Below, piece after piece: positions 33,983 through 57,885 of a stretch of 64,000 nt of DNA (its first letter is position 1; each line of letters starts with the position of its first letter). The notes beneath the pieces were generated by a model. The model searched no databases and was not told the origin of the DNA. It saw only the letters and a list, made by a program, of their open reading frames with translations. The position numbers and the translations under genes are program-made. Origin of the DNA: Solanum dulcamara (lineage: Eukaryota; Streptophyta; Magnoliopsida; Solanales; Solanaceae); NCBI RefSeq assembly GCF_947179165.1, contig NC_077237.1, forward strand, positions 14,164,235-14,228,234. Reading direction: 5' to 3'.

Positions 33983-36900
33983 TCATCCTTCCATATCACT
34001 AATGGTCTTGGAATTCCTTAAGCTCTCACAACCTGGACAATTGTGCAAGCTCTCATGTATATAAATATCACAGTCAAGGCAGAAGTGTTGCTTGCAGTTT
34101 GGACAAGCAACCTGTGAACCTGGCAAATTTCCTACATCAAATCAAATAAAGAAAAAAGTGAGAATATCCAGATGACTGGAGAGAAAAGAGGAACAAGTAA
34201 AAAGTTAGACTCCTGTACATAATATTTGCATTAGGCCAAACACATGGACATCCCCTTAAATCTTAATGTTGCCACGACTTTTCACTTAGACACCTCGATT
34301 GAGGTTATTAGAGCGCATGAATTGCAATGTGATTTTTTTGTTTTATTTCTTTCTTCTTCTCTCCTCCAGCTCTCTGCTGATGCCACCACCTACATACTAC
34401 CAATCACCGGAAACCACTGCAGCCTTTGTCTCTCCCTCCTAAATAGAATCCCACCAGAGAAAAATACCAACTAGCGATCCTTCATCTTCCAATAAGCGAA
34501 ATACCATCGGAAACCAAGACTGATCAATGGAAAGACTACCATGAATGAACAGAAAACCCAGCTTTTACTACTACAGCACATCATCCATACACTACACCAT
34601 TCCAACCTGACAAATCGACGGCCTTCCAATTTCAAGCAAAACCCCTCACAACTACCTCCGTATCAACACTTAAATTTATTGAAACTAAGGGGGTGTCAAC
34701 CCATGAACAAGTAGAAGAAAAAGAAGATGATGAACCACATTCATTCAGTCAAACAAAGCGTCCATTGACAGTCGGTTTAGCACCTTGAAACGTGGTTTAT
34801 ATAACTTTGCCTGAGAAAAGCTAACTCTATTGTTGGGCCTCTAAAGTAAAACGTCAAGATGAGTGGTCATGGAAATGAAGATGCTAAGATGAACGGCAGT
34901 CATACAAGACTAGACAAGATTAGAACCGATCACATTCACAAGAAGGTTCAAGTAGTATACATCGAGTCAAAAAATAAGAGAAGGTCGCTTGAGATGGTAT
35001 TTATGTCTTGCATAAACTTCAAATTCACCGGTTTGTAGATAAGTGGTGAGAGAAAGTAATAAAAAGGGATGAGGTACCTAAATCACTTAGAAGGAAGTTG
35101 TATTGAAAGACTAACAATTTATTGAGGTTCATGCAAGGCTTAGTGAAAGATAAGGGCACAACAAAAACAACAACATACCCAGTGAAATCCCACAAATGGG
35201 GTCTGGGGAGGGTAGGGTGTACGCAGACCTTACCACTACCTCATGGAGGTAGAGAGGCTGTTTCCGCAAACCCTCGGCTCAAAAGTCACAGTTCCAAGTT
35301 CGAGAGAAAGACAATATATATAGCATAATAAAATAGAAAATAAAAAAAGCAAATTTTACAAGACAATAACAATAGCGATAACATAGTAATGCGATAATCA
35401 AAGGCAATATCAACACAACTATACAGGCACGCCTAGACCTACGACCACCCTAAACCGACACACGGCAAGACACCATTCAATCCCTACTAGTCTTCTACCC
35501 TAATTCGCGATCTCCACTCCTTTCTAAGGTCATGTCTTCGATAATATGTAGTAGCACCATATCTTGTCTAATCACATCTCTTCAATACTTTTTCGGTTTA
35601 CCCCTACCTTTCCGCATAGCCCTCAAATCCAACCGCTCGCACCTTCTAATTGGGTCGTCGACATCCCTCCTCTGCACATGCCCAAACCATCTCAGTCTCG
35701 CTTCTCTCATCTTGTCTACCACAGATGTCACTCCCACCTTCTCCCGAATAACCTCATTCCTGATCTTATCACTTCTAATGTGTCCACACATCCATCTCAG
35801 CATCCTCATCTCCGTAACATGCATTTTCTGAACATGAGAGTTCGTTACTGGCCAGCACTCCACTCCATATAACAACGCTGGTCTAACCACCATTCTATAG
35901 AACTGACCTTTAAGTTTAAGTGGTACTTTCTTATCACACGGGACTCCAGAGGCAAGCCTCCATTTCATCCACGCTGCCCCAATGCGGTGCGTGACATCAT
36001 CATCGATGTCCCCACTACTCTGGATGATGGATCCAAGATATTTAAAGTTTTCTGTCTTAGGGATAAGGGCACAATGGAAGAAAAAGATCTATGTAGGAGA
36101 TATCTATTAACTAAGAGCACGTTGTAGTCATGCTAACACTTTCACTTTACGTCCTATACTTTTATCAGAGTTGTTTAGCCTTTCAGAAATTTATACGACT
36201 GTAGCAAAAAGAACTTCTAGTACTTTTTATGTTGCTTTATTTTTATTCCTATTATTTCATATGATATTGTCCTCAGATGGTTTGATTGGAGTAATATGGT
36301 CAGTGAGGATTCCTATAGCCGATTCCTATAGCCGACCCCAACTTGCTTGGGACTGAGGTGTAGTTGTTGTATTGTTGGGCAGCTGAGTAAGGTAGGGATG
36401 ACTTGAGTATTTATAGGCATGATTTGTGTTGTTCAGAATATAGTGACATATTTCTATTTTTTCTTCTATTTTCAGGTTTTTAGAGAGCAAATTTAAGGAG
36501 AGATTTTCACGAGGCATGGGAGAAAATGGAGGAATGAGTTGCCGGAGATTGATCAGAGAAAAAAAAGGTAAGGTTGGGGAAGATGACAAGGTGGCAGTTT
36601 TTTTATTCTAAAGATAGTGGTTTCTTTTTCCTTTTTTATTAGTTGGATTCAAAAGCCACATGGTTTTGTTCGATTTGCCATTTTACCACATCATCGCATG
36701 TCAACCACCCCACACCCCCTACCCCTCACCTTCACCCGTCATAGTATTTGTTTAAATTGTATAAAAATGCTTAATAGGATAATATATTTTGCTTGTGTAC
36801 TGAACACAAGAAAATAAGTAAGAAACCCGCTTATTTTCCTAGAACACATTTTCTATCATACCAAACACACCCACTTATTTTCTTGGAACACATTTTCTAT

Positions 36901-39900
36901 CATACCGAACACACCCTAAGTGTTTGCTTGGTAACAACTTCAATTAAGGTGTCTAAATGGTTGTCTATGTATTTGGACTTGCATTAAGAAGAGAGATTGC
37001 TTCCTTTCCAAGTTTTATGATCCCAAGCCATGTTTGGTCCAAGCACAACTCATTTTACAGAATAATTTCCTAATTCATCACACAAGTTACAAGAAATTTG
37101 GCCAAAAAAAAAACCAATCTGGCTGAATACAAACACTAGTTCAACAGGCTACTTCCTTAAAAGACCGAAATTCAGCATTGCTTGAAATTTTGCCTCAACA
37201 CAGTCCTCAAAGGACATAATTACAAAAATCAGGGAGAAGCACAGAATTGTAACATCAAATAACATACCATCTTGGACGTGCATAATTTAAGCTCTAGAAA
37301 CTAAGCATCTTGTTTATTCTGTAGAACACTAGAGACATTTCTTTTGCTTCAGTTCAACAAAAGCTCAGTTAAGCTAGTGCATGTTTTTTTTTTCCTTTCA
37401 TTCTTTTTTAATTGGAGAAATGCACATACAAGATATCTCAGATGACAAACAATTATGTAAATACCCTCTACAATTCTCTGCAGCTATGAACTTAAAGAAA
37501 GGAACTTCACTGACATCCTCACCGACACAAGATGTTTCAGGTCAGGGTTATGTACCCAGGGTTAATCTGATAAACTACTCCATTTGAGAATTATTAAATT
37601 ATCGAACATCATAGCATATACATGGATAATGTTAATATCTGCCAAACAAATGCAAATCTCAGGTGTTTCATTTTGATAAGGAAGACCAGCTCAGGTGCTT
37701 CATTGGGTCCCAGATTCACTTTAAAACTTATTTGCAATGCAATCTTGAGAGCAAACAGAAAAGACATGTTTTCCTCATTTTGGCATGAATCTTTTACCAC
37801 TGGAGGTTTCAATTCTGAACCAAAAAATTGTATATCATTTTACAAATATATTGTGACCAGGTGCTTCATTGGGTAGCAGATTCACTTCAGTGGTTATTTA
37901 CAGTGTAATCATGAGGGTAAACAGATAAGACAGATTTCCTTGTTTATTGGCATGAATCTTTTACCTCTAGATAGTTTCAATTTTGAAAATAAGCTTAAGA
38001 GTTCTCATACCAGGATTTAGAAGACTCAGTTGGCAACCAAAGCAATTGTTTGGTAACTTGTGAAGATCTTTCAGAACGGAGGGTGAAATGTCATCAAATG
38101 GCCTTATTGGGAAGAGATGATGATATGACCTTGCCAAATGTGGAGAAGATACAAGGGTCAGTCCGCAGATGCAACACTCAGTAGGCAGCTCACATATGCG
38201 TGCTTTGCATCTCGGACAAGTGTATCCACCACCAACTTTAGCCTCTTTATGGCATGAACAAATTGAAATGACACCCTCTGCTGTTCTTTGGGGGAACCCC
38301 ATCTTGATCAAATTTGCAACAGCGAACTCTGCAATAGCTGGAGGAGGTGGAGCATGCTCCAATACTAACTCTTTTAAATGAAGCTGACAGAGCAATACAC
38401 AAAGAATCAAATTATAAAAAGTTTTAACAATATAATGCTTGTCACATATTACGAATCATTCAATGAGACATTTTACATAGTAGGCAATTAGAACCAAATT
38501 TCTCCTAAATTTCCAGCAAAAGATTTCCTTATTCTATTACTTTTTTGTTTCACAAGTTCGCATATTATCATTACTTCAGAGCGCAATTATCTATTCCTTA
38601 CCTCATCCAATGCAACAAAATACATTCCACCAGTCTCTTGGCAGAGATGCTTGCATATGTAGAGTTCTGCAGAGAGACCAATTACTGAGCACCTTATCTT
38701 AAACGCTTTGCATTTTTGGATGGTTTCCAGTATATCCCCCGGATCACATGTGCTAAGAGCTGAATACAAGATAAGGACTTCACGATGACCATAAGATGGA
38801 ATTTGATTTAGGAGATCACACACAAGATCTAGGCCATTCTGAAGGGATGCATCACCTGAGGTCCCCAATTTACCCATCAATGCTTTGATATGAGCCTCAG
38901 GACTGCCACCAAGATCTGTTAAGCAATGAGCTACTCCATCTTTCAAGATCACCAAGCCAATTTGACTCAGGGGATTCTGGTCAAAAAATTCTCTTATAAA
39001 AGCCTCCACTTGCCTAGCAACTACAACCATTCGGCTTGGTTTATAATCCATTTCTGCAGCAGCCTGAAATTCAAAATTCAAGTGAGCAATTATTAACTCA
39101 AAAGTTGTATAAAGTTCAAGATATTATGAGACATTAGTGCCTTTCTTTCAAAAGTCATTCTTAAAATCATCCAGACTTAATTGAAATGAATGCTAAAAGT
39201 CTCTTTTACTATATCTAGATTTCTAGTACTCAAAGCATTTCAATTTTCTTCTAGCTTTCCAAGTTGGCTTGGGCGTTGCGGAACTATAAGCGTATAATAA
39301 AAGTATCAAGTAGATAAAACCAATTCTCAGAAAAAATTCAAGCAATGTGAAAAAAAGAAAACTAGGAAAATGTCACAAAAAAAAAAAAGATGCTGACAAC
39401 TTGAAAGGGGAACTATCAGCAAAAAGTTTACATGCAAATGTTTAAGATTGTTTATTGCAGCACCTCGTCACTGATAAAAGAAAACATCTAATGCAGTGAT
39501 AAGCACAATCCAATTAAGGGACATTTTCAAAAGGCAATATTGTCTTAGACACACTGAATTCACAATTTTATCTCAGAAATTCAAAACATGGTTTAGAGAA
39601 ATCAATGTGAGGTGATGTTCAAGCATACATGGTGACATCAAAACTGAAAGTGGGTATTCGCTTGAATATTCATTAGATTCACTGATCAAAGACGACCCAA
39701 TTGCATAGCAAACAGCAGTGCGATTTTCTGAAAAAGTTATTCAGAGTGTTGGTTTCTCAAGCCATTACAAGAAACAGAAATATACTTAGCCTTATCAATA
39801 TCTCATAGCATAATAAACTAGTTGCAATCACTAAATCTTAGACACAAATAGAAATCCATAAAACTAAGAGCTGCTGGTTCTTTGAAAGGACCATATCGTA

Positions 39901-40383
39901 TTCCTTCTTAAGAAACAATTTGCTAGCATCGAAAGGAGATCAACAGATTGTCTGGGAAATTGGACCCGATTAACTTCTTCCGGAGACAACTCATTTACAA
40001 ACAGATAACTATAGATACTTAAATAATTATTTCATATCTTGCAACGAAAAATTAAACCTTTAAATGTCAGTAACCAACTACAGTAATGCAGTTATTGTGC
40101 AATCATATAGGATTTTACATACCCTGGAGAAATCAATGATAATGTAGAGGTACCGAATCAGACCCTTCTGAATTCGCGCAGCAGTTGCAGTGCGGAGACG
40201 TCGTCGATACTGAGCATGGGATAGAGTTTTGTTGTCAATTGGACGAAGGAGTCCTGATTCATCCTCTTGCAAAGACTCCCATGATCTTTCATCTGCATAA
40301 GTTCTTTCCCATGCTTCTCGACCTCTCCCATTTTCCTCCTCATCCTCCTCTTCTTGATTAAATCGTTTTTCTTCATTGTTCAT
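33983..40383 (-). CDS. GTF2H2: general transcription factor IIH subunit 2 (p44/SSL1)
   Basis: This is a core subunit of TFIIH, which opens promoters for RNA polymerase II and unwinds DNA in nucleotide excision repair; in other eukaryotes p44 binds and stimulates the XPD helicase. Hand-joined coding exons are 40123-40383, 38602-39063, 38011-38383 and 33983-34131, giving 414 residues with a TGA stop, close to family length. An acidic N-terminus precedes the SSL1/VWA domain (about residues 78-245, IIIDFSRAAAEMD, then [13 protein letters not shown]). A zinc-binding region follows (CPRC at 297-300, CCIC at 311-314, then [12 protein letters not shown]), and the C-terminal C4-type finger has CPNC 375-378, CLDC 383-386 and CPGC 397-400. 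The start is chosen from the acidic N-terminus. A splice-acceptor-like TCTAACAG lies just upstream of the ATG, so a 5'-untranslated exon is likely. Intron 3 is 3.9 kb and full of transposons. Confidence 0.95.
34840..36369 (+). mobile_element. RTE-like LINE, 5'-truncated, interrupted by a second RTE
   Basis: This insertion lies in GTF2H2 intron 3, antisense to the gene. It is bounded by an 11-bp duplication TATTGTTGGGC (34829-34839 and 36370-36380). It ends with the plant RTE-type tail CCCCAACTTGCTTGGGACTGAGG then TTG repeats. A decayed reverse-transcriptase C-terminus is visible near 34870-35000 ([16 protein letters not shown]). The second RTE (35162-36061) splits it. Confidence 0.85.
35162..36061 (-). 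mobile_element. RTE LINE, 5'-truncated, nested insertion
   Basis: A 13-bp duplication GATAAGGGCACAA (35149-35161 and 36062-36074) bounds this 900-bp insertion. On the minus strand it carries 128 intact codons of an RTE reverse-transcriptase C-terminus (35582-35968; motifs [49 protein letters not shown]). A 3' end with CCCTACCCTCCCCAGACCCC and a TTG-rich tail follows. The 5' part is missing, which is usual for target-primed insertion. Confidence 0.9.
37690..37985. repeat. imperfect tandem duplication in GTF2H2 intron 3
   Basis: Units about 37690-37815 and 37857-37985 share GGTGCTTCATTGGGT, CAGATTCACTT, TGGCATGAATCTTTTACC and a closing TTTCAATT. The second unit ends about 25 bp from the donor side of exon 3 (exon edge 38011). 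Confidence 0.75.
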
Positions 40384-40906: not shown

Positions 40907-41134
40907 AAAATATTTTTTGATAATTGCGGTGTCCGGGCCAGCTTACGTGCACCTCTACTAATTCCACAGGATACCTGTCACCTCTTATTAGCAAGAGGTA
41001 CCAAGTAACGTCCACCAAGACTAGAACAAATGGGATGAAATCACCTAGTTTTTTGTCTCTGCTAGGATTTGAACTTGAGACCTTAGGGTTCTCAATCCAC
41101 TTCATTGACCACTATGCCACACTCTTGATTGCAC
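40907..41134 (-). repeat. TS-type SINE
   Basis: The minus strand has A-box TGGCATAGTGGTCAATG, B-box GGTCTCAAGTTCAAATCC, and the TS body motifs GGTGGACGTTAC, GTGACAGGTATCC and GCTGGCCCGGACACC, ending in TATCAAAAAA. TS SINEs are known from tobacco and other Solanaceae, which supports the host family. Flanks GTTAGGACACCT (40895-40906) and GTTAGGGCACCT (41135-41146) form a 12-bp duplication with one mismatch. Confidence 0.9.
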
Positions 41135-41146
41135 GTTAGGGCACCT

Positions 41147-42646
41147 ATTTACTACAACTAATTGCAAATAATTCCATTTACTACTATCCGCAACCTGAGA
41201 TCGGTTAAGAGTTCAGATTACCTCAAAAGAAAAGTGTTAGGTACCATTCGAGATCCACAATGCCCCTCTGAATTTAAACTAGGTGGGATTTAAGTGCTTG
41301 AGCTAAATAATTCTAAATGACCTAGATGATTAAAGATTCAAGTTAATTATATCAACCCGAGTGAGATAACTGATTAAGTGTACAATTTACTGTTAATAAT
41401 TAATGCTAGAATGAAGCTAGGTGTTGAAGTAGAAATATGGTTTGGAAAAATTAAGAGAGGAAGCTTCATTGATAAAGAAAATACATATAATATTTGTACA
41501 AGGAAAATAGACATAAAAGGAAGAAGAAACAACTGAGACTACAACAGACAAAGGTTTTCATTGACAAAAGGAATTTGAATTTTGAATACAATATCTTTAC
41601 AAAGGTAAGCCTACGAATTAAAAAATAAAAATAATAAAACTTGAATAAATTAACACTTATCTACAAACAACAACAACACATGCCCAATGTAATCCCACAA
41701 GTTGGGTCTGGGGAGGGTGGTGTGTAACGTAGCCTTACCCCTACCTTGTGAAGGTAGAGACATATCAAAATTAGTAAGAAAAGGAAATAGAGTAATGAGG
41801 AAACCATATAGAAAATAATGGAGAAAAGAACAGTAGCAATAACAAATAGTATGCTAACCGAAGCAGAGGAAACAAAAGGGTAACAATAAAATTGAATAAT
41901 AAGGTAATAGGAGCGTACTAATGATAATACTGATACGGGGAACTCGGCAACACTCGACTACTCAGGAACATAAGAACATAAACACGAAATTACAACCAAG
42001 ATGTAAAAATTCTACAAAGAAAAATATTTGAGTTTTGTTGACAATGACGAAAATAGTAAGTAAAAAAAAGAGAAATAGAAAGAAAAATGAACATGAGGGA
42101 GATGAATGTGAAGTCTAAAATAGTAAGAAGGAGAAATAGAGAGAAATAAACACGAGGGGAGGGCCGAATACAATCCCCTTCTCAATGGAAAAAATACATA
42201 TGAATTTGGAATTAAGAGTAAGTCCATTACTTAGAGTATCGAGAGCAACAATGTAACATGTTACCATGATTTTGTGTACTATGGAAATTAAGGTGATTAA
42301 ACACAGAGACATACTTATATGTTTAGGGCAAAATTTAGTTTGAGGCTTTCTCTTTTAGAATTGGTAACATTAGTTTGAGGCTTTTGACTTCAAGTATTCA
42401 AGACGAGATACAAAATAGAAACAAATAGAATCAAATAGAAATAACAATATTTTTTAATGCAGAATACAAATATAAATGTTTACACCTCTACACATGAGGG
42501 GGTAAGCTCCTAGGTTATAAAAGTGCGGAGAACGAAGATCTAGAATAAAATGAATTAAATAATATTAATTTCTGCTTCATACTGCTGGAACCGTTAATGC
42601 CTCGCATAATCAACATTTTAATGGGGAAAAAAACATGAGAAATTTG
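41147..42646. other. intergenic stretch with one RTE 3'-end copy
   Basis: No gene is recognised. At about 41672-41765 there is another minus-oriented RTE 3'-end/SINE-like fragment (CAACAACAACACATGCCC, TCTGGGGAGGGTGG, CTACCTTGTGAAGGTAGAGA). The rest is AT-rich, with a purine-rich stretch at 42050-42170 that produces meaningless frames. Confidence 0.6.
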
Positions 42647-43204
42647 GTCAGATATTTGGTTCGAATGGGTGGAAAGAAGTCAGAACTTGATGCGCAGAAC
42701 CACTATTAACAAGAAACCAAGGAATGGATCGTTTTTTCTCTACGAGAAGCCTCAAGGGAGGACGATACGCATACGAGAAGATGGAAGATGAATGAACAGT
42801 TTGCAGATTTCTTTTGCTCGAGAAAACATAACAGTTTTGGCAGATTCATTAGTATTGTAACAGAACAAGGGGGGAAAAGATCTGCCACATAAATTATGAG
42901 AAGTTTTAATTATACTTCAAAAGATCTGCCAAAAAAAAAAAAATTACAGGAAGTAAGATGCACACAAACTCGATGTGTCTCCGATATCAGTACTTGACAA
43001 CGAAGTTTGTGTCCGTACATTATTCTTTGTTGGAATTTATTTGGTTGTTATTCTTGGCATGCATTGTTCCTCTTTCCTTATATAGGTTGGTTAATGCTAT
43101 TCTTCTTATTACCCACAACCTTGAAACCTAGACAAATCCTAAAAACTGTATACACAAACATAAATCTCAACAGCTAACAGTGTCAAGAAGCTTTCTCGAC
43201 TATA

Positions 43205-43366
43205 CAACAACAACAACAACAAACCCAGTGTAATCCCACCATGTGGGGTCTGGGGAGGGTAGAGTGTACGCAGACCTAACCCCCACCTTAAAAGGTAAGG
43301 CGGCTGTTTCCGAAAGACCCTCGGCTTAAGAGAGAAGAACAAGGGAGGAGAAACAAGGGAAACAAG
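43205..43366 (-). repeat. RTE 3'-end insertion in the left arm
   Basis: The insert is (CAA)n, then CCCAGTGTAATCCCACC, TCTGGGGAGGGTAGAGTG and GGCTGTTTCCGAAAGACC. Flanking duplication CTATA lies at 43200-43204 and 43367-43371. The paralogous stretch at 61225-61260 lacks the insert and reads straight through (TTTCTCGAATATATGGCATG), an empty site. The mirror copy is at 48669-48830. Confidence 0.85.
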
Positions 43367-44239
43367 CTATATGGAATGAATTTGCAGCGAACTTACTGAA
43401 ACCTATATACATTTAATGCTGACTTACCTTTTCTTATTTTATTTTCATAGTTTTTGTAAACTCACTCTTCTAATATAGTAGAAATAAGCTAAATTCTGCA
43501 ACGACATAAACATTGGGCCCGTGCTTGCACGGGCTAATATCATCTAGTCCTACTATTTAGAAAAGCAACTTAAGAGGCAGGATCGGGAAGTATTGTTGTG
43601 AACCCAGATAGTATATGGATGACAGTGAGGCAACCACGGCAGATAAGAAAATTATTCAGCTGAGACGGGGCACAAGGGTATAATTACCACTTAGAAGACT
43701 TGTTGAGTTTGTGCGAAAGAAGGGTAGCAAAACGTGATGGGCAAGTATGGGTGGAGGCAGCATATGAAAGATAGTAAAGTTTGTTATAAGTGGCTATCAA
43801 GAGTCATAACAAACAAGGCTATTCTTGTGTATTGGTATTCTGCCATCTCATCTATTTTTTCTGCTTTATTTCTCGTATCAAATCCTCTCTACTTAATTCA
43901 GACTCTGTTCTATTGTTTCATTGATATTAGTGGCTTGTAATTCCATTTAGTTAAAGCTAATATACACTCTTAGGGATGAATACAAAATTAAAACTTTCGG
44001 TGACTTCCTATACCTCGAACCTCCCCTTCATCCTCCCAAAAGAAGGAACCTCTACTGCATAAAAATCAAAACTTTCACCATCACAAGCATTCTCAAGTTC
44101 AAAAAACATAAAAAATTATGTTGCATCCAACTAAACAAAAACTAATTCACCAACTTCAATATTCTATTTACAATTCAAAATTCTTTGATGTAATTGCAAT
44201 TAACAACCAAAAAAACAACAAGGGAAGAGAAAAAATTAC

Positions 44240-44372
44240 TTGAGAGAGAGACCACGGAGGTTAGATGAAAAAGAGATTGATGTGGGGTTGAGTGAATCAG
44301 AATGAAGTCCAGGAATGGTCAGTCTTGAACCAATTCTTGATGAACCCAGTACAGAAAAAAAATGTTTGTCGC
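44240..44372 (-). pseudogene. degraded copy of a plastid-targeting first exon
   Basis: This is the same exon-like sequence as 59186-59319 and 62228-62361. The start codon has become GCG and the serine-rich start is altered by a run of T residues, so translation from this copy is not expected. Downstream residues (GSSRIGSRLTIPGLHSDSLNP) are still recognisable. The mirror copy is at 47663-47795. Confidence 0.65.
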
Positions 44373-44470
44373 TTGGTGTGGGATCTATATCCACTTTCAA
44401 AGTTGGGTTTCAATTTGAGGCTATATTACCTTAATACCCTTTTTATTTATTTAACCATTCTATTAAATTT

Positions 44471-45590
44471 TGAGTTAATAGTTAAAAGTTCATTTAAACT
44501 TGATACATTTTGAGCCCGTTTGGATGGGCTTATAAAAGTTATACATTTTGAGCCCGTTTGGATGGACTTAAAAAAAGTAACTTTTATGTATGAAGTGCTC
44601 TTAGAACTTTGAAGTGCTGAAAGTTATTTTTATAAATAAGCAGTTGAGTGTTTGGATAAAAATGCTTAAATGAGGAAAATGATGTGAATTTTAGGGTTAA
44701 AAGAATAAAAAGGGTAGTTTGGGAATTTAGTTAAAATATAAGGGATATAAAAGTAATTTCCATGGTCAAAGAAAATGACTTTAAGGACTTAGAAAAAAAA
44801 AAGTTCATTTTTGACTGACTTTAAAAACTTTATGACTTAAAGTTATCATTAGGCAAATACGTTTAAAAGCTAAAAAGTGGTTTTAAGTTGATTTTGACCA
44901 ACTTAAAGACCATCCAAACAGGCTCTTTATTTGGACACATAAATTATGAGAAGTTTTAATTATCCTTCAAACACGGATTTTTGAAACTGTTTACCTCCTA
45001 AATTATGAGAAATCTTAATTACCCCCTTAGATATAAATTTTTGAAACTATTTATTTCTAAGATGTTCCAAGGCACAAAAAAATTTACTATGTCTAATTTA
45101 TACGACTCACTTTCCATTTTAGGTAATTTCTAAAGAAATGTCTGCATTTTTTTATTTAGTAAAAATTTATTTTTTGTTTCTATTTATATAATGTAGTTTG
45201 ATTTGAAATGAAGTTTAAGAAAGACGTGGTATAAAATAAGTCATAAATATTTATGTGTCAATAATTATTTCATTAGGGGTAAAATAAAAATTTTAAAGTT
45301 AAATTTTTACTAAATATAAAAATGTGTCCTTCCTTTTGGGATTGACTAAAAAAGAAAGCGACTCATATAGATTGAAATAGAATAATTTTTTTAATCATGT
45401 GGCATATTAGGGTACAAATAATTTCAAAAATTCATGTTTGAGAGGGTAATTGGGACTTTTCATAGTTGAGGGAGTAAATAGTTCCAAAAATCCATATTTA
45501 AGAAAATAATTAAGACTTTTCATAATTTAGAGGTGCGTTTAATAAAATATGTCAAATTTAAAAAGGCCTTCAACATTAACTTAAATTTTT
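44471..45590. repeat. foldback element, family A, with a MITE inside
   Basis: The left end (GAGTTAATAGTTAAAAG...TTAAACTTG) and right end (inverse, GTCAAATTTAAAAAGGC...TTAACTT) match the family of 27098-27735. The MITE at 44550-44925 interrupts it near the left end. The inverted-duplication boundary at 45495 falls about 95 bp before the right end, so this copy is complete while its mirror copy is cut. Confidence 0.7.
44550..44925. repeat. Tourist-like MITE (left arm)
   Basis: Termini are GAGCCCGTTTGGATGGAC and the inverse of GAGCCTGTTTGGATGGTC, flanked by TTT on both sides. A partial duplicate of the left end lies at 44512-44549. The same family is at 47110-47485 (mirror) and 56790-57170. A 3-bp duplication and GxGCCCGTTTGG ends suggest PIF/Harbinger. 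Confidence 0.75.
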
Positions 45591-46539
45591 TTAAAAAGAA
45601 AAAATCAAGGAAAGGCAACTTTTGAAAGCACTGATTGGGACTTGTGTTTCCGAAGAGTTGTGATGCTTAAATAGATTAGAATGAAATAAGATAAAAACTT
45701 CACAGTATTTTACTACTAACATGTAACTAAAACCCCACAAAATAAAAATTATGCCCTACAGTGAGCATTTCTTCATCTTGAGTTATTATTTTAGTAGAAT
45801 CTCTTCTTGCTTTATCCTAGAGGTAATTATAATTGTCCTCACGCTTCTCGATTCCCTTTTTTACTGCTTTGAATTTGTTTTTTTTTTACAAAAATTACTA
45901 TGATTCATTGTTATTATTTTCTTGATAATATAATATGATATTTAAATTATCAATAAAATAATAGCAATGTATGAAGAGAACAAATTTAAAAGAAAATGAT
46001 GAAGTATGTTATCTTTAAAAAAAATGTTGCATACCAATTTTTCTATTACTTTACTTTACTATATATAAAACCAAAAAAATTAAAAAAATATTCCAACCAT
46101 TTCAATCATCTCGAGTTTTCTATGGTAGTCATACGGCTCGATTAATTTTAGTATTTTTTATTAGTCACATAGAAATTGTCATCTCTTTTAATCATATATG
46201 TTAATCTCAAGGAGAAAATGTCTGAAATTTTATGACATGTTGAGTGAATGTGTATAATTAAAGAAAATGTCATATTTTAAGTAGTTAATTTAACTATCTA
46301 ATTGATAAATGAGAACACATGCAAACAAAATTAATCTAAAATTTGAATCGAAAGTGTCTAAATGAACACTTTATTAGTTGTTGAGGTGCTCAATTGAAAC
46401 ATAGCATAGTTTGAGTATCTAAATAAAACATGGAAAATAGTTCAAAACACACTCCTACTATGACCGAAATTGTTGTTACACACTCCAACTTTGCGGGATA
46501 ACACCCATGGACTATTTCTAACTAAAATTTCTAACACCC
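45496..46539. other. unique spacer of the inverted duplication
   Basis: This 1044-bp stretch has no gene and no self-complementarity comparable to the arms. Its first 95 bp are the end of the left foldback element. Confidence 0.8.
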
Positions 46540-47109
46540 ATGGATTTTTGGAACTATTTACTCCCTCAACTATGAAAAGTCCCAATTACCCTCTCAAACA
46601 TGAATTTTTGAAATTATTTGTACCCTAATATGCCACATGATTAAAAAAATTATTCTATTTCAATCTATATGAGTCGCTTTCTTTTTTAGTCAATCCCAAA
46701 AGGAAGGACACATTTTTATATTTAGTAAAAATTTAACTTTAAAATTTTTATTTTACCCCTAATGAAATAATTATTGACACATAAATATTTATGACTTATT
46801 TTATACCACGTCTTTCTTAAACTTCATTTCAAATCAAACTACATTATATAAATAGAAACAAAAAATAAATTTTTACTAAATAAAAAAATGCAGACATTTC
46901 TTTAGAAATTACCTAAAATGGAAAGTGAGTCGTATAAATTAGACATAGTAAATTTTTTTGTGCCTTGGAACATCTTAGAAATAAATAGTTTCAAAAATTT
47001 ATATCTAAGGGGGTAATTAAGATTTCTCATAATTTAGGAGGTAAACAGTTTCAAAAATCCGTGTTTGAAGGATAATTAAAACTTCTCATAATTTATGTGT
47101 CCAAATAAA

Positions 47110-47485
47110 GAGCCTGTTTGGATGGTCTTTAAGTTGGTCAAAATCAACTTAAAACCACTTTTTAGCTTTTAAACGTATTTGCCTAATGATAACTTTAAGT
47201 CATAAAGTTTTTAAAGTCAGTCAAAAATGAACTTTTTTTTTTCTAAGTCCTTAAAGTCATTTTCTTTGACCATGGAAATTACTTTTATATCCCTTATATT
47301 TTAACTAAATTCCCAAACTACCCTTTTTATTCTTTTAACCCTAAAATTCACATCATTTTCCTCATTTAAGCATTTTTATCCAAACACTCAACTGCTTATT
47401 TATAAAAATAACTTTCAGCACTTCAAAGTTCTAAGAGCACTTCATACATAAAAGTTACTTTTTTTAAGTCCATCCAAACGGGCTC
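47110..47485. repeat. Tourist-like MITE (right arm, mirror copy)
   Basis: This copy arose through the inverted duplication and not through its own insertion, because its flanks mirror those at 44550-44925 exactly. Confidence 0.75.
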
Positions 47486-48668
47486 AAAATGTATAACTTT
47501 TATAAGCCCATCCAAACGGGCTCAAAATGTATCAAGTTTAAATGAACTTTTAACTATTAACTCAAAATTTAATAGAATGGTTAAATAAATAAAAAGGGTA
47601 TTAAGGTAATATAGCCTCAAATTGAAACCCAACTTTGAAAGTGGATATAGATCCCACACCAAGCGACAAACATTTTTTTTCTGTACTGGGTTCATCAAGA
47701 ATTGGTTCAAGACTGACCATTCCTGGACTTCATTCTGATTCACTCAACCCCACATCAATCTCTTTTTCATCTAACCTCCGTGGTCTCTCTCTCAAGTAAT
47801 TTTTTCTCTTCCCTTGTTGTTTTTTTGGTTGTTAATTGCAATTACATCAAAGAATTTTGAATTGTAAATAGAATATTGAAGTTGGTGAATTAGTTTTTGT
47901 TTAGTTGGATGCAACATAATTTTTTATGTTTTTTGAACTTGAGAATGCTTGTGATGGTGAAAGTTTTGATTTTTATGCAGTAGAGGTTCCTTCTTTTGGG
48001 AGGATGAAGGGGAGGTTCGAGGTATAGGAAGTCACCGAAAGTTTTAATTTTGTATTCATCCCTAAGAGTGTATATTAGCTTTAACTAAATGGAATTACAA
48101 GCCACTAATATCAATGAAACAATAGAACAGAGTCTGAATTAAGTAGAGAGGATTTGATACGAGAAATAAAGCAGAAAAAATAGATGAGATGGCAGAATAC
48201 CAATACACAAGAATAGCCTTGTTTGTTATGACTCTTGATAGCCACTTATAACAAACTTTACTATCTTTCATATGCTGCCTCCACCCATACTTGCCCATCA
48301 CGTTTTGCTACCCTTCTTTCGCACAAACTCAACAAGTCTTCTAAGTGGTAATTATACCCTTGTGCCCCGTCTCAGCTGAATAATTTTCTTATCTGCCGTG
48401 GTTGCCTCACTGTCATCCATATACTATCTGGGTTCACAACAATACTTCCCGATCCTGCCTCTTAAGTTGCTTTTCTAAATAGTAGGACTAGATGATATTA
48501 GCCCGTGCAAGCACGGGCCCAATGTTTATGTCGTTGCAGAATTTAGCTTATTTCTACTATATTAGAAGAGTGAGTTTACAAAAACTATGAAAATAAAATA
48601 AGAAAAGGTAAGTCAGCATTAAATGTATATAGGTTTCAGTAAGTTCGCTGCAAATTCATTCCATATAG

Positions 48669-48830
48669 CTTGTTTCCCTTGTTTCTCCTCCCTTGTTCTT
48701 CTCTCTTAAGCCGAGGGTCTTTCGGAAACAGCCGCCTTACCTTTTAAGGTGGGGGTTAGGTTTGCGTACACTCTACCCTCCCCAGACCCCACATGGTGGG
48801 ATTACACTGGGTTTGTTGTTGTTGTTGTTG
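48669..48830 (+). repeat. RTE 3'-end (right arm, mirror copy)
   Basis: This is the inverse of 43205-43366, differing at one base within the box that reads GTACGCAGACC in most copies (here GTACGCAAACC). It shows that the RTE insertion predates the inverted duplication. Confidence 0.85.
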
Positions 48831-49388
48831 TATAGTCGAGAAAGCTTCTTGACACTGTTAGCTGTTGCGATTTATGTTTGTGTATACAGTTTTTAGGATT
48901 TGTCTAGGTTTCAAGGTTGTGGGTAATAAGAAGAATAGCATTAACCAACCTATATAAGGAAAGAGGAACAATGCATGCCAAGAATAACAACCAAATAAAT
49001 TCCAACAAAGAATAATGTACGGACACAAACTTCGTTGTCAAGTACTGATATCGGAGACACATCGAGTTTGTGTGCATCTTACTTCCTGTAATTTTTTTTT
49101 TTTTGGCAGATCTTTTGAAGTATAATTAAAACTTCTCATAATTTATGTGGCAGATCTTTTCCCCCCTTGTTCTGTTACAATACTAATGAATCTGCCAAAA
49201 CTGTTATGTTTTCTCGAGCAAAAGAAATCTGCAAACTGTTCATTCATCTTCCATCTTCTCGTATGCGTATCGTCCTCCCTTGAGGCTTCTCATAGAGAAA
49301 AAACGATCCATTCCTTGGTTTCTTGTTAATAGTGGTTCTGCGCATCAAGTTCTGACTTCTTTCCACCCATTCGAACCAAATATCTGAC

Positions 49389-49897
49389 TTTGTCAGTTTT
49401 GGCACAACCAGATTTTAACAAGGTGTTCGTGGTTGAGGCAGATGCTTCGGGATTAGGGATTGGAGCTGTCCTAATGCAAGGAGGACATCCCATCACTTTT
49501 CTTAGTCAAGGACTTCCCATTCGAGCTCAAACTACATCATATGAGAGGGAGTTGATGGCCATTGTTTTTGCTGTACAAAAGTGCCGTGATTACCTGATGG
49601 GTCAACAATTCATTATACAAAATTATCAACGAAATCTACAATATCTCAGGGCCAACATGCTGTGGCAGAGGAGCAACAAAAATGGGAAACCAAGTTGATG
49701 GGATCTACTTTTGAAATTCAATATGGCCCAGGTTGTGAAAATAAAGCAGTTGATGCCTTGTCCCGCTAATTTCATTTCATTGCTTTTTTTGTTCTATGCA
49801 GTAGTACCTTAGATGATCTTTCCACAGAAATTCGACAGGATGATCAATTTCGTCAATTGACACAAGATTTGCTTCAAGATCCGGCTTCAAGGCCGAA
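49389..49897 (+). mobile_element. Ty3/gypsy chromovirus (Reina-like), RNase H part
   Basis: RNase H is clear: VFVVEADASGLGIGAVLMQG, ITFLSQGLP, YERELMAIVFAVQKCRDYLMG. Then, after a frameshift, FEIQYGPGCENKAVDALSR (about 49710-49768) and DLLQDPASRPNY (to about 49897). The reverse transcriptase that should precede it is missing at the inverted-duplication breakpoint. The element resumes at 54330 after the LINE. Confidence 0.88.
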
Positions 49898-50430
49898 CTA
49901 TGTCTATCCAGTTCCTTGAAGCTGTTGAATCGTGGGAGACAGCAACTGAGATGAAGGAGAATAGTAAAGGTGGGGAAGAACCACCTTCTGAAGAAGTCTC
50001 GCACATACAGCAGTGCAAGACGACGCAAACCATTGAAAATAAATCGCATAACTTGAATCATTCAGAGAAGGACGGAAGAGACCTACAAATACAACAGATT
50101 GTCGAGGCAGATCCAGTGGCAATTCAGAACTCAGCAGATCTTGAAACAGTTGAAACAGAGGCATCAAACTGGGTTAATTCCCACATCCTGGAACTGAGCA
50201 ATACTTACGGAATAGCGTTTGAGGGTTTTGAAAGTGAAACTTTGGCTCTCCTCAAGAGAATTGATGAGAGAAAAGTGGCACTTGACAACAAGGAGATAAG
50301 GAAAGCAAATGTGACACCCAAGAGCAGAGGCAAAGGTAAAAATGAGTTGAAAAACTTACAGTCAAGCCTAAACAAGGAGGTAGAAGCGGTAAGAAGCAGG
50401 GGGAAGGCTCTCAGCTTAACATTTAGATGA
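49898..50430 (+). pseudogene. LINE ORF1 C-terminal remnant
   Basis: This is a 176-residue highly charged frame (acidic first, basic at the end: KSRGKGKNELKNL) without a visible zinc knuckle. Its TGA stop overlaps the ATG of ORF2 in ATGA (50427-50430). ORF1 proteins of plant L1 elements bind element RNA; here only the end is left. Confidence 0.65.
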
Positions 50431-51155
50431 AGATCAAAATTTGTCATGGAATGTAAGAGGTCTTAACAACTTGACTAATAAAGCTCTGGTTAAGACATGT
50501 CTACATAAATGGAAAGCAGATGTGATCTGCCTTCAGGAAACAAAAATTAATAAGAGAGTAGAGGAAATAGCATATCAACTGTGGTCGTCAAGATGGATGG
50601 AATGTGGATATATAGAATCGGAAGGGAGCAAAGGGGGTATACTAATTATGTGAGACCGCAGGGTGTGGAAGGGTTCAGAGGTAAAGGAAGGCAAATTCTC
50701 GATCACTTATAGATTCGAGTCAGTTCTTAATTCTTTTTGCTGGTTCTTTACTGGTGTTTGTGCACCCCACACTAGAAGTGAAAAGCTAGAATGTTGGGAA
50801 GAAGTAGCAGCTATGAAGGCAATGTGTGGCGATCATTGGGTCACGGTCACGGGTGGTAGAAAGAAGTGGATGCAACAGACTCACTAACATAATGCTTGAA
50901 TTCTCAAGTTGGATAGAAGAGCTGGAACTTCATGATCCAGTTCTGAGGGGTGGGAGTTACACTTGGTTTAGGGGAATTAATCACCAAAGTGCTGCTAGGT
51001 TGGACAGATTTTTGTATTCTATGGAATGGAAGGAAAATTTCAAAAGCATCATACAAAGAACTCTACCAAGGGTAGCTTCTGATCACTGTCCTATATTTCT
51101 TGAATGTGGAGACTGGGAACAGAGACAACCCTATTTCAAATTCGAAAATTGGTAG
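50427..51155 (+). pseudogene. LINE ORF2 endonuclease domain
   Basis: The start MKIKI is followed by a one-base loss, after which LSWNVRGLNNLTNKALVK continues in another frame, then VICLQETKI (catalytic E) and later a broken core. The closing TLPRVASDHCPIFLECG holds the conserved SDH. An in-frame stop at about 50651 also breaks it. This is an apurinic-like endonuclease that nicks the target in active elements. Confidence 0.88.
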
Positions 51156-51299
51156 CTCAAGGTGGAGGGATTTAAGGATTTGGTACAGGACTGGTGGAGT
51201 AGCTTTGCTGTTGAAGGGTGCCCTGATTACAGATTAGGGGCCAAGCTCAAAATGCCAAAAGATAAAGTTAAAAGAATAGAGTAAGAAGACTTTTTCCGA

Positions 51300-52950
51300 C
51301 CTAGCCAACAGGAAAAACAATCTCCTGGAGGAACTTTCTGAGCTTGACAAAATTCAAGAGGATAGGCTTCTCTCTGAGGATGAAGCGACAATAAGGGCTA
51401 CAATACTGGTGGAGCTGGAAGTTCTGGCTAAACAGGAAGAAGCTAGCTGGAGGCAGAAGTCTAGAACCCTTTGGCTGAAGCAAGGAGATAAGAACACTAG
51501 ATTTTTCCAAAGAGTGGCTACAGACCACAGGAGATATAATACTATTGACAAAATCATGGTAAGAGGTGAGGAGGTGCAAAAACCCAAAGAAATCAAAGAG
51601 GCAATGATAGAGTTCTATTCCAATTTGTACTCGGAATCTGAACTATGGAGACCTTCCTTTGACCTGGAAGGATGTCCTATAATCTCAGTGGAAGAAAATG
51701 AGTGGCTCCAAAGACCATTTACAGAGGCAGAGGTGATACAGATCATCAAGCAGTGTGATGGAGATAAGGCTCCAGGGCCAGATGGATTTACTATGGACTT
51801 CTTCAAGACATAATGGGATATCCTAAAAGAAGACCTGATGCAGACCATTCAGAATTTCCACCAAAGGAGTATTTTTGAAAAGTCCTTCAATGCCACTTTC
51901 ATAGCATTAATTCCAAAGAAGCCTGGAGCAGTGGAGTTGAAAGACTTCAGACCAATCAGTTTGATAGGAGGGGTATACAAAATCATATCTAAGTTGATAA
52001 CTGAGAGGTTGAAAACAGTTATAGGGAGATTGGTGGATGAGCACCAAATGGCATTTTTGAAAGGAAGACAAATAATGGATGCAGCTTTGTTGGCCAATGA
52101 GTTGGTAGATTCTAAAGTGAAACAAAAGAAAAAGGGTATCTTTTGTAAGCTAGATATTGAGAAGGCCTATGACCATGTTAATTGGAATTTCCTCCTAAAA
52201 ATTCTAAAGGACATGGGATTTGGCAACAGGTGGATTAGCTGGATAAAATTTTGCATTTCAAGTGTGAAATTCTCTCATTATCAATGGAAATACTGAGGGT
52301 TTCTTCCAGCACATAGAGGTCCAGCACAAGGAGACCCTATGTCCCCGTTCCTTTTCCTAATGGCAATGAAAGGACTGAATCATATGATTAAGATAGCAAA
52401 AACTAATGGCTGGATAAAAGGTTTCAGTGCTCAACCAGGCAGGGGAAATGAGCCGGAAATCACTCATCTGTTTTATGCAGATGATGCCCTCATATTCTAC
52501 GAAGCAGAGGTGGTGCAGATTAGACATCTAAGGGCAATTCTAACAATTTTTTAAGTCATTTCAGGTCTTCATGTCAACTGGCTGAAAAGTATGCTATTCC
52601 CTATCAATCAAGTTGATAATTTGCAATGCTTAGCACAAAACTTGGGCTGCCAGATTGGATCACTACCATAAAAATACTTGGGCATGCCATTAGGTGCTAA
52701 GAATATAGAGTTGGAGGTATGGAGTGAGGTGCTAGAAAGATGTGAGAAAAAACTATCAAGGTGGAGGAGCCAGTATTTATCCCTGGGTGGGAGACTGACA
52801 CTTACTAAAGCAGGGCTTGATGGTCTGCCTACATACATGATGAGTCTATTTCCTATTCCTAAAAGCATAGAAAAAAGAATAAATAGATTGAGAAGATCCT
52901 TCCTATGGCACAAGGGAATAAGGAGAAGAAAGGCTACAATTTGGTGAAAT
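51300..52950 (+). pseudogene. LINE ORF2 reverse transcriptase
   Basis: Motifs in order: SRTLWLKQGDKNTRFF, GDKAPGPDGFTMDFFK, FIALIPKKPGA and DFRPISLIGGVYKIISKLI, then LDIEKAYDHVNW, GDPMSPFLFLMAM and the catalytic FYADDALIF (about 52471). The thumb region MPLGAKNIELEVWSEVLERCEKKLS follows. Stops at 51811, 52294, 52552 and 52668 divide the domain. Confidence 0.92.
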
Positions 52951-53399
52951 GGGATATTCTTACCCTTATCAGAGAACAAGGGGGTCTTGGACTGAAGAAT
53001 CTCAGCAAACAGAACAATTGTCTCCTACAAAAGTGGTTATGAAGATTTTGCACAGATGATTGGGTCTTATGGAGAAGGTACATAGCAGGAAAGTATGGCT
53101 TACTTAGCCACTAGATAACTGAAGAAGTCACAAGCACATTGGTTGTAGTGTCTGGAAAACAATCAGGAGACTTTGGCCTTACTTTATTAACAATATCTAC
53201 ATTGATGTTGGTAATGGTCTGAAAACTGCTTTCTGGAATGAAGTTTGGGTAGGGGAGAACAGCTTGACAAACTTATTCCCCCAATTATACCTGTGAGATA
53301 ATGATACTATCTCACAGGTATGGAGCCAACAAGGCTGGAACTTACTTTTCAGGAGAGCACTGATGACTGGGAAATTGAACAAGTAGCAGGTTTCCTGGG

Positions 53400-54214
53400 A
53401 ACTTTAAACACTTCTCCTGGTATTTCCATGAGTCTCTGGAAACTACACAGCAAAGGCCAGTGCACAGTCAAGTCATGCTACTGGAACATCAATTCCAACC
53501 AGATAGCAACAGACATAGGGCCTTGGAAGGCAATCTAGAAAGCCAGAAGTCCACCAAAAGTGACTTGTTTCACATGGCTAGTGTGCAGGAAAGCCTGCAT
53601 CACCCATGAGACACTGCAGAAAAGAGGATGGCAAATATGTTCTAGATGTTTTATGTGTGAGCAGGAAGCAGAAGTAAATAGTCATTTGTTTATGCATTGC
53701 AATACTGACACAAGCCTTTTTTTTTTTTTTTTTTTTTTTACGGGAACAGACCCTACACGAGGCTCCCACCTCTCGTGCACAGCCAGGGGTTGAGCCGCAC
53801 ACCCCCAAGCCTTATTATACATAAAACAGAAAAATACACGGAGGGGGACATAAACCTAACCTCCAATCCTATGGTGGTTCATAAGTCGGTCATCCTACTA
53901 AGGGGGACACAAGCCTATGGAACAGTTTCTTGTGCACTTTATGAGTTAGCTGGGTGATGCCCAAGACAACCTTGGAGTTGATGAATCAATGGTCAGGAAT
54001 TGGCAAAAGAGGAAAAGAAGAAGATTGGTGGAAGACAATACCAGCTTGTATATGGTGGACATTATGGAGAGAAAGGAATGATAGGTGCTTTGAAGATCAG
54101 AGAGTCAATATACAGAAGATTAAGATGAAGTGCATAAGCATGCTATTTTTTTGGTGTAAACAAGAGTTGGTAGGGGAGACAGTAGATTTAGTAGATTTCA
54201 TCAGAAACTTGTAA
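53400..54214 (+). pseudogene. LINE zinc-binding (zf-RVT) and C-terminal region
   Basis: SPPKVTCFTWLVCRKACITHETLQKRGW, then CSRCFMCEQEAEVNSHLFMHC, form the zinc-finger-like region common at the C-terminus of plant LINE ORF2. A 188-bp insertion (53718-53905) splits the domain. The frame continues after it with LWNSFLCTL and ends in a 86-codon stretch, IWWTLWRERNDRCFE, stopping at 54214. Confidence 0.88.
53718..53905 (-). repeat. poly(A) retroposon insertion in the LINE
   Basis: An 11-bp duplication GACACAAGCCT (53707-53717 and 53906-53916) brackets an insert that, on the minus strand, ends in about 22 A residues. The body contains GCTTGGGGGTGTGCGGCTC and GTGGGAGCCTCGTGTAGGG. I see no convincing Pol III boxes, so it could be a SINE or a short LINE tail. 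Removing it rejoins the LINE frame exactly. Confidence 0.85.
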
Positions 54215-54329
54215 AAGTACCCAAATAGGGGTGTGCCCACCACTCTGTGGGTTGTAAGTTTCCAATTCATCATTCATTGAATGATGAATTTTTCGTGTGA
54301 ATACAAAATTACCCTTATCTCAAAAAAAA

Positions 54330-55669
54330 ATGGTTGCCTATTTTTCAAAAGTCAGCTATTGATTCACCGTTCATCATTACACATTCCCATGCTCCTTGGG
54401 GAATTTCACTCCACACCTATAGGTGTACACTCAGGCTTTTTCCAGGCATACAAGCGCATTTCACAAGAGTTGTATTGGAGTGGAATCAAAAGGGATGTTA
54501 AAAACTTTGTGGCTAGTTGTGATGATTGCAAGTAGAACAAGTGTGAAGCCCTTAGTCCCACTGGCTTGCTGCAGCCATTACCTCTTCCTACTCTAGTTGG
54601 AATGATATTGCTATGGATTTCATCAGCGGGTTACCAAAAGCAATGGACATGATACTATACTTGTTGTGGCGGATCGTTTCACTAAATATAGTCATTTTCT
54701 CCTCTTATCTAATTCATACACAGCAAAGAGAGTTGTTGAGCTATTTGTTCATGAGGTTGCATGTTACATTGTTTCCCCAAATCAATTGTGTCTGATCGAG
54801 ATCGGGTTTTGTCAGCCAATTTTGGCAAAAATTATTCAAGTTGTCTGGTAATAGCCTCAAATTGAGCTCAAGTTATCACCCTCAAACAAATGGTCAAACT
54901 GAGGTTGTCAACTGCTCTTAGGAGACTTATTTACGTTGTTTTGCAAGGGCACATCCAAAACTATGGCCAAGATGGATTCCTTGGGCTGAATTTTGGTCCA
55001 GTACCACTTACCATGGTTCCACCAAGATGACCCTTTTTAGATCTTTATATGGGAGAGATCCTCCTCTTTGTTGCAGTTCACTGATGTAATTTCTGTTGTT
55101 GAAGAGGTCAACCAGCAGCTTATGGCTCGCAACACTATTTTAGATGAACTCAAAGCTGATCTGACTCATGCTCAAGCTATGCTGATGCCAAGCGTCGTGA
55201 AGTTGTGTTTCAGCTTGGTGCTTTGGTTTACCTTCACGTGCAACCTTTCAAACTTTGCTCACTTTGCTAAAAAGGTTAATCAGAAGTTAAGTCCTCGTTA
55301 CTATGGGTCATATACTATCTTCAATAAAATTGGTGAAGTTGCTCATTGCCTTGATTTACCCCCTCATTCACGGTTGCATCCCACATTTCATGTTTCTAGG
55401 CTAAAGCGTGCAGTAAAGGATTCTACTCTACTTCATGAGCTTCCTCCTTTCTTATCTGAAGAACTTGAAATGCAAGTGCAACCTGAAGGTATAGTAGACT
55501 GCCTTACACTCTTGAATAGATCCAAGAGATGTTTATTAAGTGGAAGGACTTGGGAATCCTATGAAGTCATTGATGCACAGTTTCCTCATTTTCACCTTGA
55601 GGACAAGGTGAAACTCAATGGGGCGGGTATTGTTAGACCTGTTGTTACTAGAGCCTATAAGCACAGGAA
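54330..55669 (+). mobile_element. Ty3/gypsy chromovirus (Reina-like), integrase and chromodomain
   Basis: The zinc-binding domain GEFHSTPIGVHSGFFQAYKR, then LYWSGIKRDVKNFVASCDDC, is followed by integrase core pieces (DFISGLPKAMD, VVADRFTKYSHFLLL, SDRDRV, then SSYHPQTNGQTEVV in another frame). The 207-residue frame 55068-55691 holds KLSPRYYGSYTIFNKIGEVAHCLDLP, HPTFHVSRLKR and a chromodomain ending WESYEVIDAQFPHFHLEDKV, as in Reina chromoviruses. It is broken by several frameshifts. Confidence 0.88.
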
Positions 55670-56699
55670 CAAAGGCAGATCCGGGATTTGAAGTCTCTGG
55701 GTGCCGCAATGGGTCCACCGTCCGCTGTCGACGGAGAAAGCAACAATAGCGGCACGAGGCTGAGGCGACTGGCGAGTGAAGTTGATATTTGGAGAATCCG
55801 GCTCCTCTCCATGTCTTATTCATATATCAATGATGCAAATTTTTAAGTAATCAAGTGTCTTAATCATGATTAAAGGATATATACTATCATTTAAATCTAT
55901 CTAGTTTTAGCCATAAAATAAGTCATATCACAATTTTTTAGCACCATTATTTAAATTGTTTTAGTTATCTATAATTTTTCCATTCACAAAAAATATTTCT
56001 TCACAGACAAATTTCTTCCAATTCAAAATCAGCATTTAAATAAGATATTATACGAAGAAAAAATATTGTATTTAGATATTAAATAAAAAGTATTAAAAAT
56101 TACTTTGCCATAAAATACAAAGAAAAATAATATAATTTTGTATTAGGCAATTTTTTCAAAAAGAGACAAATTTTTAAAAAAAAAAACGTCTATAGATCTT
56201 GATCGTGACTCAAATTGTAAAACTATTGTTCTTCATTATATATGAAGAATTTAATGCTATTTAACTGAAGTAGTTTCATTTGTTCTCAAAATTTTGAAAA
56301 ATGGATATTTTCTTACCAAAGTTGAAAAAATTAAATCCCAAAATCTCTTCTTTTAGTCATGGTTAATTAGTAAACTTCTTTGATTAAGAAAACTAATTAA
56401 TATAGACCTTTAATATTTAAGTAACATATGTGTCACACATTTAAATAGAAATTTACAAAAAATGGATAGAAGAGAAATGGAGAAGAGCCAAATCCATATT
56501 TGGAAAAAAAAGGAGAGAACAAAACTTTTATAAATTTTTATCTTTAAGCAAATATTAACTAATAAGAAATAAAAGAAAAGCAAAGACTAATAAATTAATT
56601 TAGTCAAAAATAATTATTTATTATTACTTAATAAAAGTCAGTTACAATTAGAAACAAACAAAAAACAAGAAAAGATTTGTGCCGAGTGATGTTGCTGTC

Positions 56700-56789
56700 A
56701 AATCTTTTTTTAAAAACCGCCAATAGGATTCGATCCCACGACCTCGCATAGAATATATATGACCCTTTGCCACTTGCACTAGAGACTAT
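56700..56789 (-). repeat. tRNA-like SINE relic
   Basis: The minus strand reads CTCTAGTGCAAGTGGCAAAG (A-box-like) and then GTCGTGGGATCGAATCCTATTGG (B-box-like), with spacing fitting a Pol III promoter. It is too degraded for a family name. Confidence 0.5.
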
Positions 56790-57170
56790 GAGCCCATTTG
56801 GATTGGCTTTAAGTTGGTCAAAACCAACTTAAAGCCCCTTTTTAGCTTTTGGACGTGTTTGCCTAATGCTGACTTTAAGCCATAAAGTTCTTAAAGTCAG
56901 TCAGAAATGAAAAGTTAGGATTTCTAACTTTTTTTTCCAAAGTGCTTAAAGTCATTTTCTTTGACCATGGAAATTACTTTTATATCCTTTATATTTTAAC
57001 TAAATTCTCAAACTACCTTTTTTTATTCTTTTAACCCTAAAATTCACATCATAACCACTTTTATCCAAACACTCAACTGCTTATTTATAAAAATAACTTT
57101 CAGCACTTCAAAGTTCTAAAAGCACTTTATACATAAAAGTTACTTTTTTTAAGCCTATCCAAACGGGCTC
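56790..57170. repeat. Tourist-like MITE
   Basis: Ends are GAGCCCATTTGGATTGGC and the inverse of GAGCCCGTTTGGATAGGC, flanked by TAT on both sides (56787-56789 and 57171-57173). The interior is similar to 44550-44925 in reverse orientation. It lies inside the larger terminal-inverted-repeat element. Confidence 0.8.
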
Positions 57171-57335
57171 TATGTTGGTTCCCTAGGTGGCAAGTTTATT
57201 ATTTATATATGTCGAATATATATATACCTATATATACATAGAGATTCCGTCGAAGTCCATGGGTGGCGTGGCACCCCCACGGACCTTAATAGGTCCGCCC
57301 CTGGCGCAGGAAGACGGGTGAAAATAAGGCTTAAA

Positions 57336-57598
57336 TGTAACTGTTTTATTTATTAATTATTATGTGTACGTATTTCTAGTGGTTACCTAGCAGTTAACTA
57401 GCAATTTAGGCAATTATAATAAAGGAAGACAGTCAGTTTTTTCTGTAGGATTTTCTCTGGCAGATTTGGAGGCTAACGTTCCTCGAAATACCTTGATTTT
57501 GTTAGAAGTATTCTCTATTTGCTATTGTAAAACTCATTCTATTGTTGGTGGCAGTAAATAATAGTTGAAGTGTTATTCCTATTTCTAGGTTCCTAACA
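57336..57598 (+). repeat. probable 3' LTR of the Reina-like gypsy element
   Basis: It starts TGTAACTG shortly after the end of the gypsy frame and ends TTCCTAACA. Its length of about 263 bp suits Reina chromoviruses, which have short LTRs. No partner LTR is in the window because the 5' half of the element is lost at the inverted-duplication breakpoint. Confidence 0.5.
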
Positions 57599-57856: not shown

Positions 57857-57885
57857 TAACAATGGTTATACCTACACGACTATTT

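Follow-up and report, generated by a model that had tools for sequence, protein, structure and literature searches.

Fold-back inverted duplications reported in humans comprise an inverted copy and a single-copy (disomic) spacer, with short microhomology at the join, and their spacers range from 766 to 70,466 bp (PMC3907307). In yeast, fold-back priming has been reported at short inverted repeats, whether the loop is short or long, for example with a 5-bp repeat and a spacer of 35 bp (PMC10622511), and it has been proposed that after fold-back synthesis the other end is captured through end joining, the captured-end insertions being mostly 5-34 bp long (PMC11724301). ODIRA is described as giving inverted triplications (PMC10766183), and in plants and animals templated filler at breaks consists of nearby sequence that has been copied in (PMC4423477, PMC2671141). 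In maize, Mu killer, a partial inverted duplication of mudrA, silences MuDR (PMC3440606).

The locus described here lies in a window, by which we mean the whole 64,000-nucleotide stretch that was analysed (C1:14164235-14228234). It resembles the human fold-back cases in combining an inverted copy, a single-copy spacer and short microhomology at the join, but the human cases reported are mostly terminal and very large (PMC3907307), whereas here the duplications are interstitial and small, and two of them face each other with a common join. With yeast fold-back priming, in which short inverted repeats prime the copying, it would share the occurrence of short and long loops and a second end that is end-joined (PMC10622511, PMC11724301); the yeast products described, however, are dicentric chromosomes or insertions mostly of 5-34 bp, whereas the segments here measure 2.8 and 19.5 kb and are joined by their outer ends. 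No inverted triplication was found at the locus. Fillers of 1-123 bp at rice excision sites (PMC4423477) and of up to 619 bp within human chromosomes (PMC2671141) are far shorter than the arms here, but a 36-bp patch within one arm fits templated filler well. Like Mu killer, the locus is an inverted duplication holding transposon sequence, but Mu killer has a known silencing effect and transcripts (PMC3440606), and none are known for the locus here. The fold-back studies compared concern human disease, cancer and yeast; the present example is an apparently young, interstitial one in a plant, in which the original and derived copies, their join and their private mutations can be told apart.

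Organisation of the locus

We found that positions i and 92035-i of the window are complementary from 42647 to 45495, exactly as the preliminary description had claimed, with only three mismatches (42743, 43167 and 43273) and no gaps; such agreement, at 2846 of 2849 positions, is far beyond chance. The two arms, A (42647-45495, plus strand) and A' (46540-49388, minus strand), of 2849 bp apiece, enclose a spacer, S (45496-46539, plus strand), of 1044 bp, and the complementarity ends sharply at all four arm ends. In a control of ten 20-kb blocks (200 kb) from the same chromosome, C1, none contained an inverted pair of at least 200 bp at 85% identity or more, the filter being one that misses spacerless palindromes and the sample being a single chromosome. 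Among the best 40 of 427 candidates scored in the assembly (942 Mb, 32 contigs), there was no second full-length match to S, which holds repeat pieces at 46161-46431 and 46424-46539. None of the relatives found for the final part of S continues beyond 46539, and three matches reach 46533-46539, a pattern that fits either a cut at this point or a natural end of the repeat.

When 10 kb of left-hand and 30 kb of right-hand flanking sequence were added to the window, a second inverted duplication, of 19.5 kb, became apparent between 49385-68892 (B; C1:14213619-14233126) and 71304-90809 (B'; C1:14235538-14255043), the window numbering being continued. The alignment of B and B' comprises 19,509 columns at 99.93% identity, with nine mismatches and four gap positions, and the part of B within the window occupies 49385-64000 on the minus strand. 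A' and B meet at their outer ends, which coincide, and the overall order is L-A-S-A'-B-centre-B'-R, where L and R are the flanks, so that A/A' forms only the smaller part of a compound structure. As a practical warning, the 64-kb view revealed this smaller half only, and the larger half lies on an assembly gap.

The centre of the B/B' palindrome is 4.9 kb past the end of the window and adjoins a gap of 500 N at 70789-71288 (C1:14235023-14235522), 6.8 kb past the window end. The contig to the left of the gap continues for about 1.87 kb beyond the palindrome centre, and this tail repeats, in slightly poorer form, the beginning of the contig that follows (one mismatch and six gap positions). Relatives of the sequence at the centre mostly stop at least 50 bp short of it, and those reaching the centre are the locus itself (40 of 74 candidates scored). 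The gap at the larger centre and the overlap of the contig ends are both features that might result if fold-back or chimeric reads had tangled the assembly graph, so that the path traversed A and B once forwards and once backwards. Fold-back reads are reported to make up 0.55-0.6% of Nanopore genomic reads and can tangle graphs, and some of these artefact reads have about 2 kb between their halves (PMC12870357). However, a fold-back read over S would pass from A' into the reverse of L, and not into B; three false joins (S/A', A'/B and the centre) would be needed; and the smaller repeat sits in gap-free sequence, the window containing no N. We therefore consider an assembly artefact unlikely, while allowing it, as the chief competing explanation, an appreciable share of the probability, and the position of the larger centre, at a contig break and beside an N gap, counts against a fold-back origin.

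Original and derived copies

A paralogue on contig C10 spans L, the repeat piece at the outer end of A and the segment 42944-44415, its coverage ending short of S. C10:945015-946708 is 94.7% identical to 40976-42643 (L) and is followed by 215 bp where the window has 2 bp; C10:946924-947164 is then 95% identical to 42646-42887, and C10:950412-951791 matches 42944-44415 in pieces (94, 89 and 82%). Since C10 independently has L followed by the sequence of A, A appears to be the copy in place. The difference of 215 bp against 2 bp marks the L/A boundary (42643-42649) as a rearrangement junction, and no more than about 1-4 bp separate this deletion junction from the outer arm end. At the inner end, a self-complementary repeat (44932-45581, plus strand) is intact across A/S (44998-45581 against its relative at 27677-27103, 81%), whereas in A' it is cut and starts only at 46544.

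For the larger pair, evidence came from a Ty3/gypsy open reading frame of 155 codons (L042:6496-6963), further upstream of which the element is interrupted by stops. This frame is continuous over the B'/R boundary at L042:6809, but the corresponding RNase H piece (49389-49698, plus strand) is cut at the A'/B join, the PF17919 match beginning at profile position 1 in B'-R and at position 9 at the join. B' is therefore also a copy in place, and with A and B' in place, A' and B are the new inverted copies, fused to each other. Thus, as is characteristic of fold-back duplications, one copy is ancestral and the other derived, according to the C10 paralogue for A, the gypsy frame for B' and the repeat crossing A/S; in addition, original and inverted copies in A/A' and B/B' are separated by single-copy sequence, S being single at full length among the candidates scored.

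The ends of A' and B have in common the microhomology TGAC (49385-49388), a feature of fold-back events at the point where the copied end is joined; in this sequence, random pairs of points share a run of at least 4 bp with a frequency of 0.024. The layout, the identity of the original copies and the common join with its microhomology can all be read from the sequence itself.

The long perfect arms, and the occurrence of TTTG at both flanks of the smaller duplication (42643-42646 and 49389-49392), could also recall a transposable element with 2.8-kb terminal inverted repeats that had inserted at this site. Insertion into the gypsy sequence of B predicts gypsy sequence on the left as well, where L stands instead, as it does on C10, so that despite TTTG the flanks do not form a target-site duplication in a site that is intact apart from the insertion. 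In B'/R this gypsy site occurs with no insert, and the arms carry pieces of several unrelated repeats. We rejected this candidate, to which we assign next to no probability.

Divergence and age of the copies

Regarding the age and INDEPENDENCE of the copies, we counted 12 substitutions in about 22.4 kb for A/A' and B/B' together, which supports the recent event that had been suggested from the window alone. The divergence of the two pairs is compatible (3/2849 versus 9/19,506; Fisher P 0.19). Plant mutation rates are 7e-9 to 1.3e-8 per site per year, and on these rates the duplication would be of the order of 20,000-40,000 years old.

All three differences between A and A' are changes of A'. 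The base of A is carried by C10 at 42743, by a relative at 61211 in the case of 43167, and by SINE-like relatives at 29651 and 35158 in the case of 43273, where the relative at 41666 also carries it, beside a gap. For the LINE part of B/B', we used B and B' in turn as queries and compared the two scores obtained at each shared genomic place. Among 40 shared places, which are not independent and some of which cover none of the four sites concerned, 32 scored higher with B and three with B', and five tied. These 40 include two (27 and 73 bits) that changed in extent and one pair matched despite a 2-base difference in start, and they omit the places that had no partner, three from one listing and two from the other, C1:51129370 being among those omitted. 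Short matches over site 52528 alone were divided (four for B, three for B' and one tie); with the closest relative (C23, 85%), the advantage of B amounts to only about one site net. Five of the nine B/B' substitutions (54061, 54445, 59426, 60469 and 60584) stand outside this comparison. The changes in the LINE part seem to lie mostly on B', the copy in place, with 52528 split.

Two of the B/B' substitutions, at 53240 and 53243 (and at the mirror sites of B'), are 3 bp apart and perhaps represent one mutational event. In addition, two tandem 63-bp units, 98% identical to each other, are located at 63564-63689, and position 63623 within them is the sole B/B' indel that is not in a long T run.

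If the new copies had been made by error-prone synthesis, all mutations might be expected on them. This holds for A' (3/3), yet the changes in the LINE part are mostly on B', so the changes do not track new versus old copy and the proposal was rejected. The presence of private changes in each pair, three on A' and most of those in the LINE part on B', argues against one sequence having been read twice, as an assembly artefact would require, although two haplotypes could also be the source of these private differences.

None of the nine B/B' substitutions falls in the inner 8.3 kb of B, next to the centre (P about 0.007, post hoc). The lack of substitutions in this part could be due to gene conversion or to a consensus shared by the assembler, and to that extent it also speaks for an artefact. 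Active homogenisation, which the preliminary description had offered as an alternative to a recent origin, left no sign in A/A', where all three differences are on the right arm; in B/B', gene conversion is one of the two possible causes of the substitution-free inner part.

Mode of formation and arm contents

From the sequence features described above, the locus is probably a real and recent compound inverted duplication, generated by fold-back or template-switch DNA synthesis. A specific version, in which both ends of a break folded back, is possible, its chances being somewhat short of even. For this version, we infer a single event that started with a double-strand break and involved the folding of both ends. 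In an ancestral order L-A-S-...-B'-R, one break would have fallen on the right-hand side of S. Its left end would then have folded back, with S as a loop of 1044 nt, and copied A over 2849 nt to produce A', while the right end, turning back at a loop of about 30-45 nt, would have copied 19.5 kb of B' to produce B, after which both new ends would have been joined via the TGAC microhomology. Loops of 1044 and about 30-45 nt are within the fold-back range reported for humans and yeast. If the template had already been broken at L/A, this would account for A' ending near the deletion junction.

Somewhat more tentatively, we suggest that one germ-line break, with both ends folded, 2.8 and 19.5 kb copied in reverse and the products stitched at 4 bp, may have left a double palindrome, stable and interstitial, that measures about 48 kb. 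The coincidence of breakpoints at 42647 would suggest that the first copy ran off the broken end of its template. Such a locus would record the natural healing of a break without loss of the chromosome end, and would show how long near-perfect palindromes arise and survive. On the other hand, the simple fold-back model gives no reason to expect a deletion junction between L and A at the arm end, and the captured-end insertions of yeast, with their usual 5-34 bp, are far below 2.8 and 19.5 kb.

MMBIR and FoSTeS are pathway names for serial template switching at replication forks, a process that falls within the broad reading of fold-back or template-switch synthesis. Switching of this type, or of the ODIRA type, could replace two-ended break repair, since two U-turns and one same-strand jump at 4 bp of microhomology would lead to the same product, and sequential switching at short inverted repeats has been described in yeast (PMC10766183). 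However, three separate switches would be required, and the usual ODIRA product, an inverted triplication with a reversed middle copy (PMC10766183), is absent, A and B being present twice each; we therefore regard serial switching as rather unlikely. In breakage-fusion-bridge, sister chromatids would have fused on both sides of the break, the bridges would have broken and the broken ends would have been joined. This would yield inverted copies with spacers on either side, their outer ends newly joined, as observed, and sister fusion at microhomology has been described (PMC10622511), but it is improbable that two bridges would break just 2.8 and 19.5 kb from the fusion points, and we give this origin a low probability. 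Both breakage-fusion-bridge and serial template switching give nearly the same product as two fold-backs, and breakage-fusion-bridge in particular is difficult to separate from fold-back by sequence alone.

The arms contain repeat pieces plus a low-copy segment, much of each arm being repeat sequence. The outer end of A is a repeat-family piece (42646-42887, plus strand) identified by its C10 match, which we take, from our own reading of the C10 copy, to be LINE ORF1-like. The 36-bp patch (42886-42921, plus strand) is 97% identical to 44936-44971 of the same arm, a source 2 kb away, and is flanked by duplicated AAGATCTGCC (10-bp duplication). It looks like an older, small templated repair, and as it was apparently copied within A, the locus may already have been repaired by copying before. 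The segment 42944-44415 (plus strand) has relatives at 60988-62403, in B, and at C10:950412-951791, and an insertion at 43204-43367 (plus strand), presumably SINE-like, is lacking in both the relative at 61246 and that on C10.

Stop-to-stop open reading frames wholly within the arms are of at most 75 aa; the two arm frames tried against Pfam gave no matches, and a search of the window against Rfam gave none. The nearest genes recognised by Pfam, with the intervening frames mostly outside that search, are represented on the left by Ssl1-like frames (37967-39123, minus strand) and on the right, beyond R, by an aminotransferase frame (PF00155; L042:9059-9433, plus strand), and both are transcribed away from the structure. 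With such short frames, repeat-rich arms and genes pointing away, the earlier suggestion of a hairpin RNA acting against genes was unsupported. The wider proposal, that the locus has been kept because a hairpin RNA silences transposons or genes, would draw on the near-perfect long arms with their repeat pieces and on the precedent of Mu killer, but the orientation of the nearest recognised genes does not favour it, there has been too little time since the event for selection to show, and the silencing by Mu killer has been tied to short antisense transcripts and not to a hairpin (PMC3440606). We hold this proposal to be very improbable; the structure, in which no function is evident, is most likely non-functional.

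The SINE-like insertion at 43204-43367 has many near-identical copies in the assembly (matches of 95-98%). Another inverted pair was observed to the left, between -8116 to -7172 (L009) and 10890-11835, with 92% identity over 946 columns and a distance of about 18 kb between its members.
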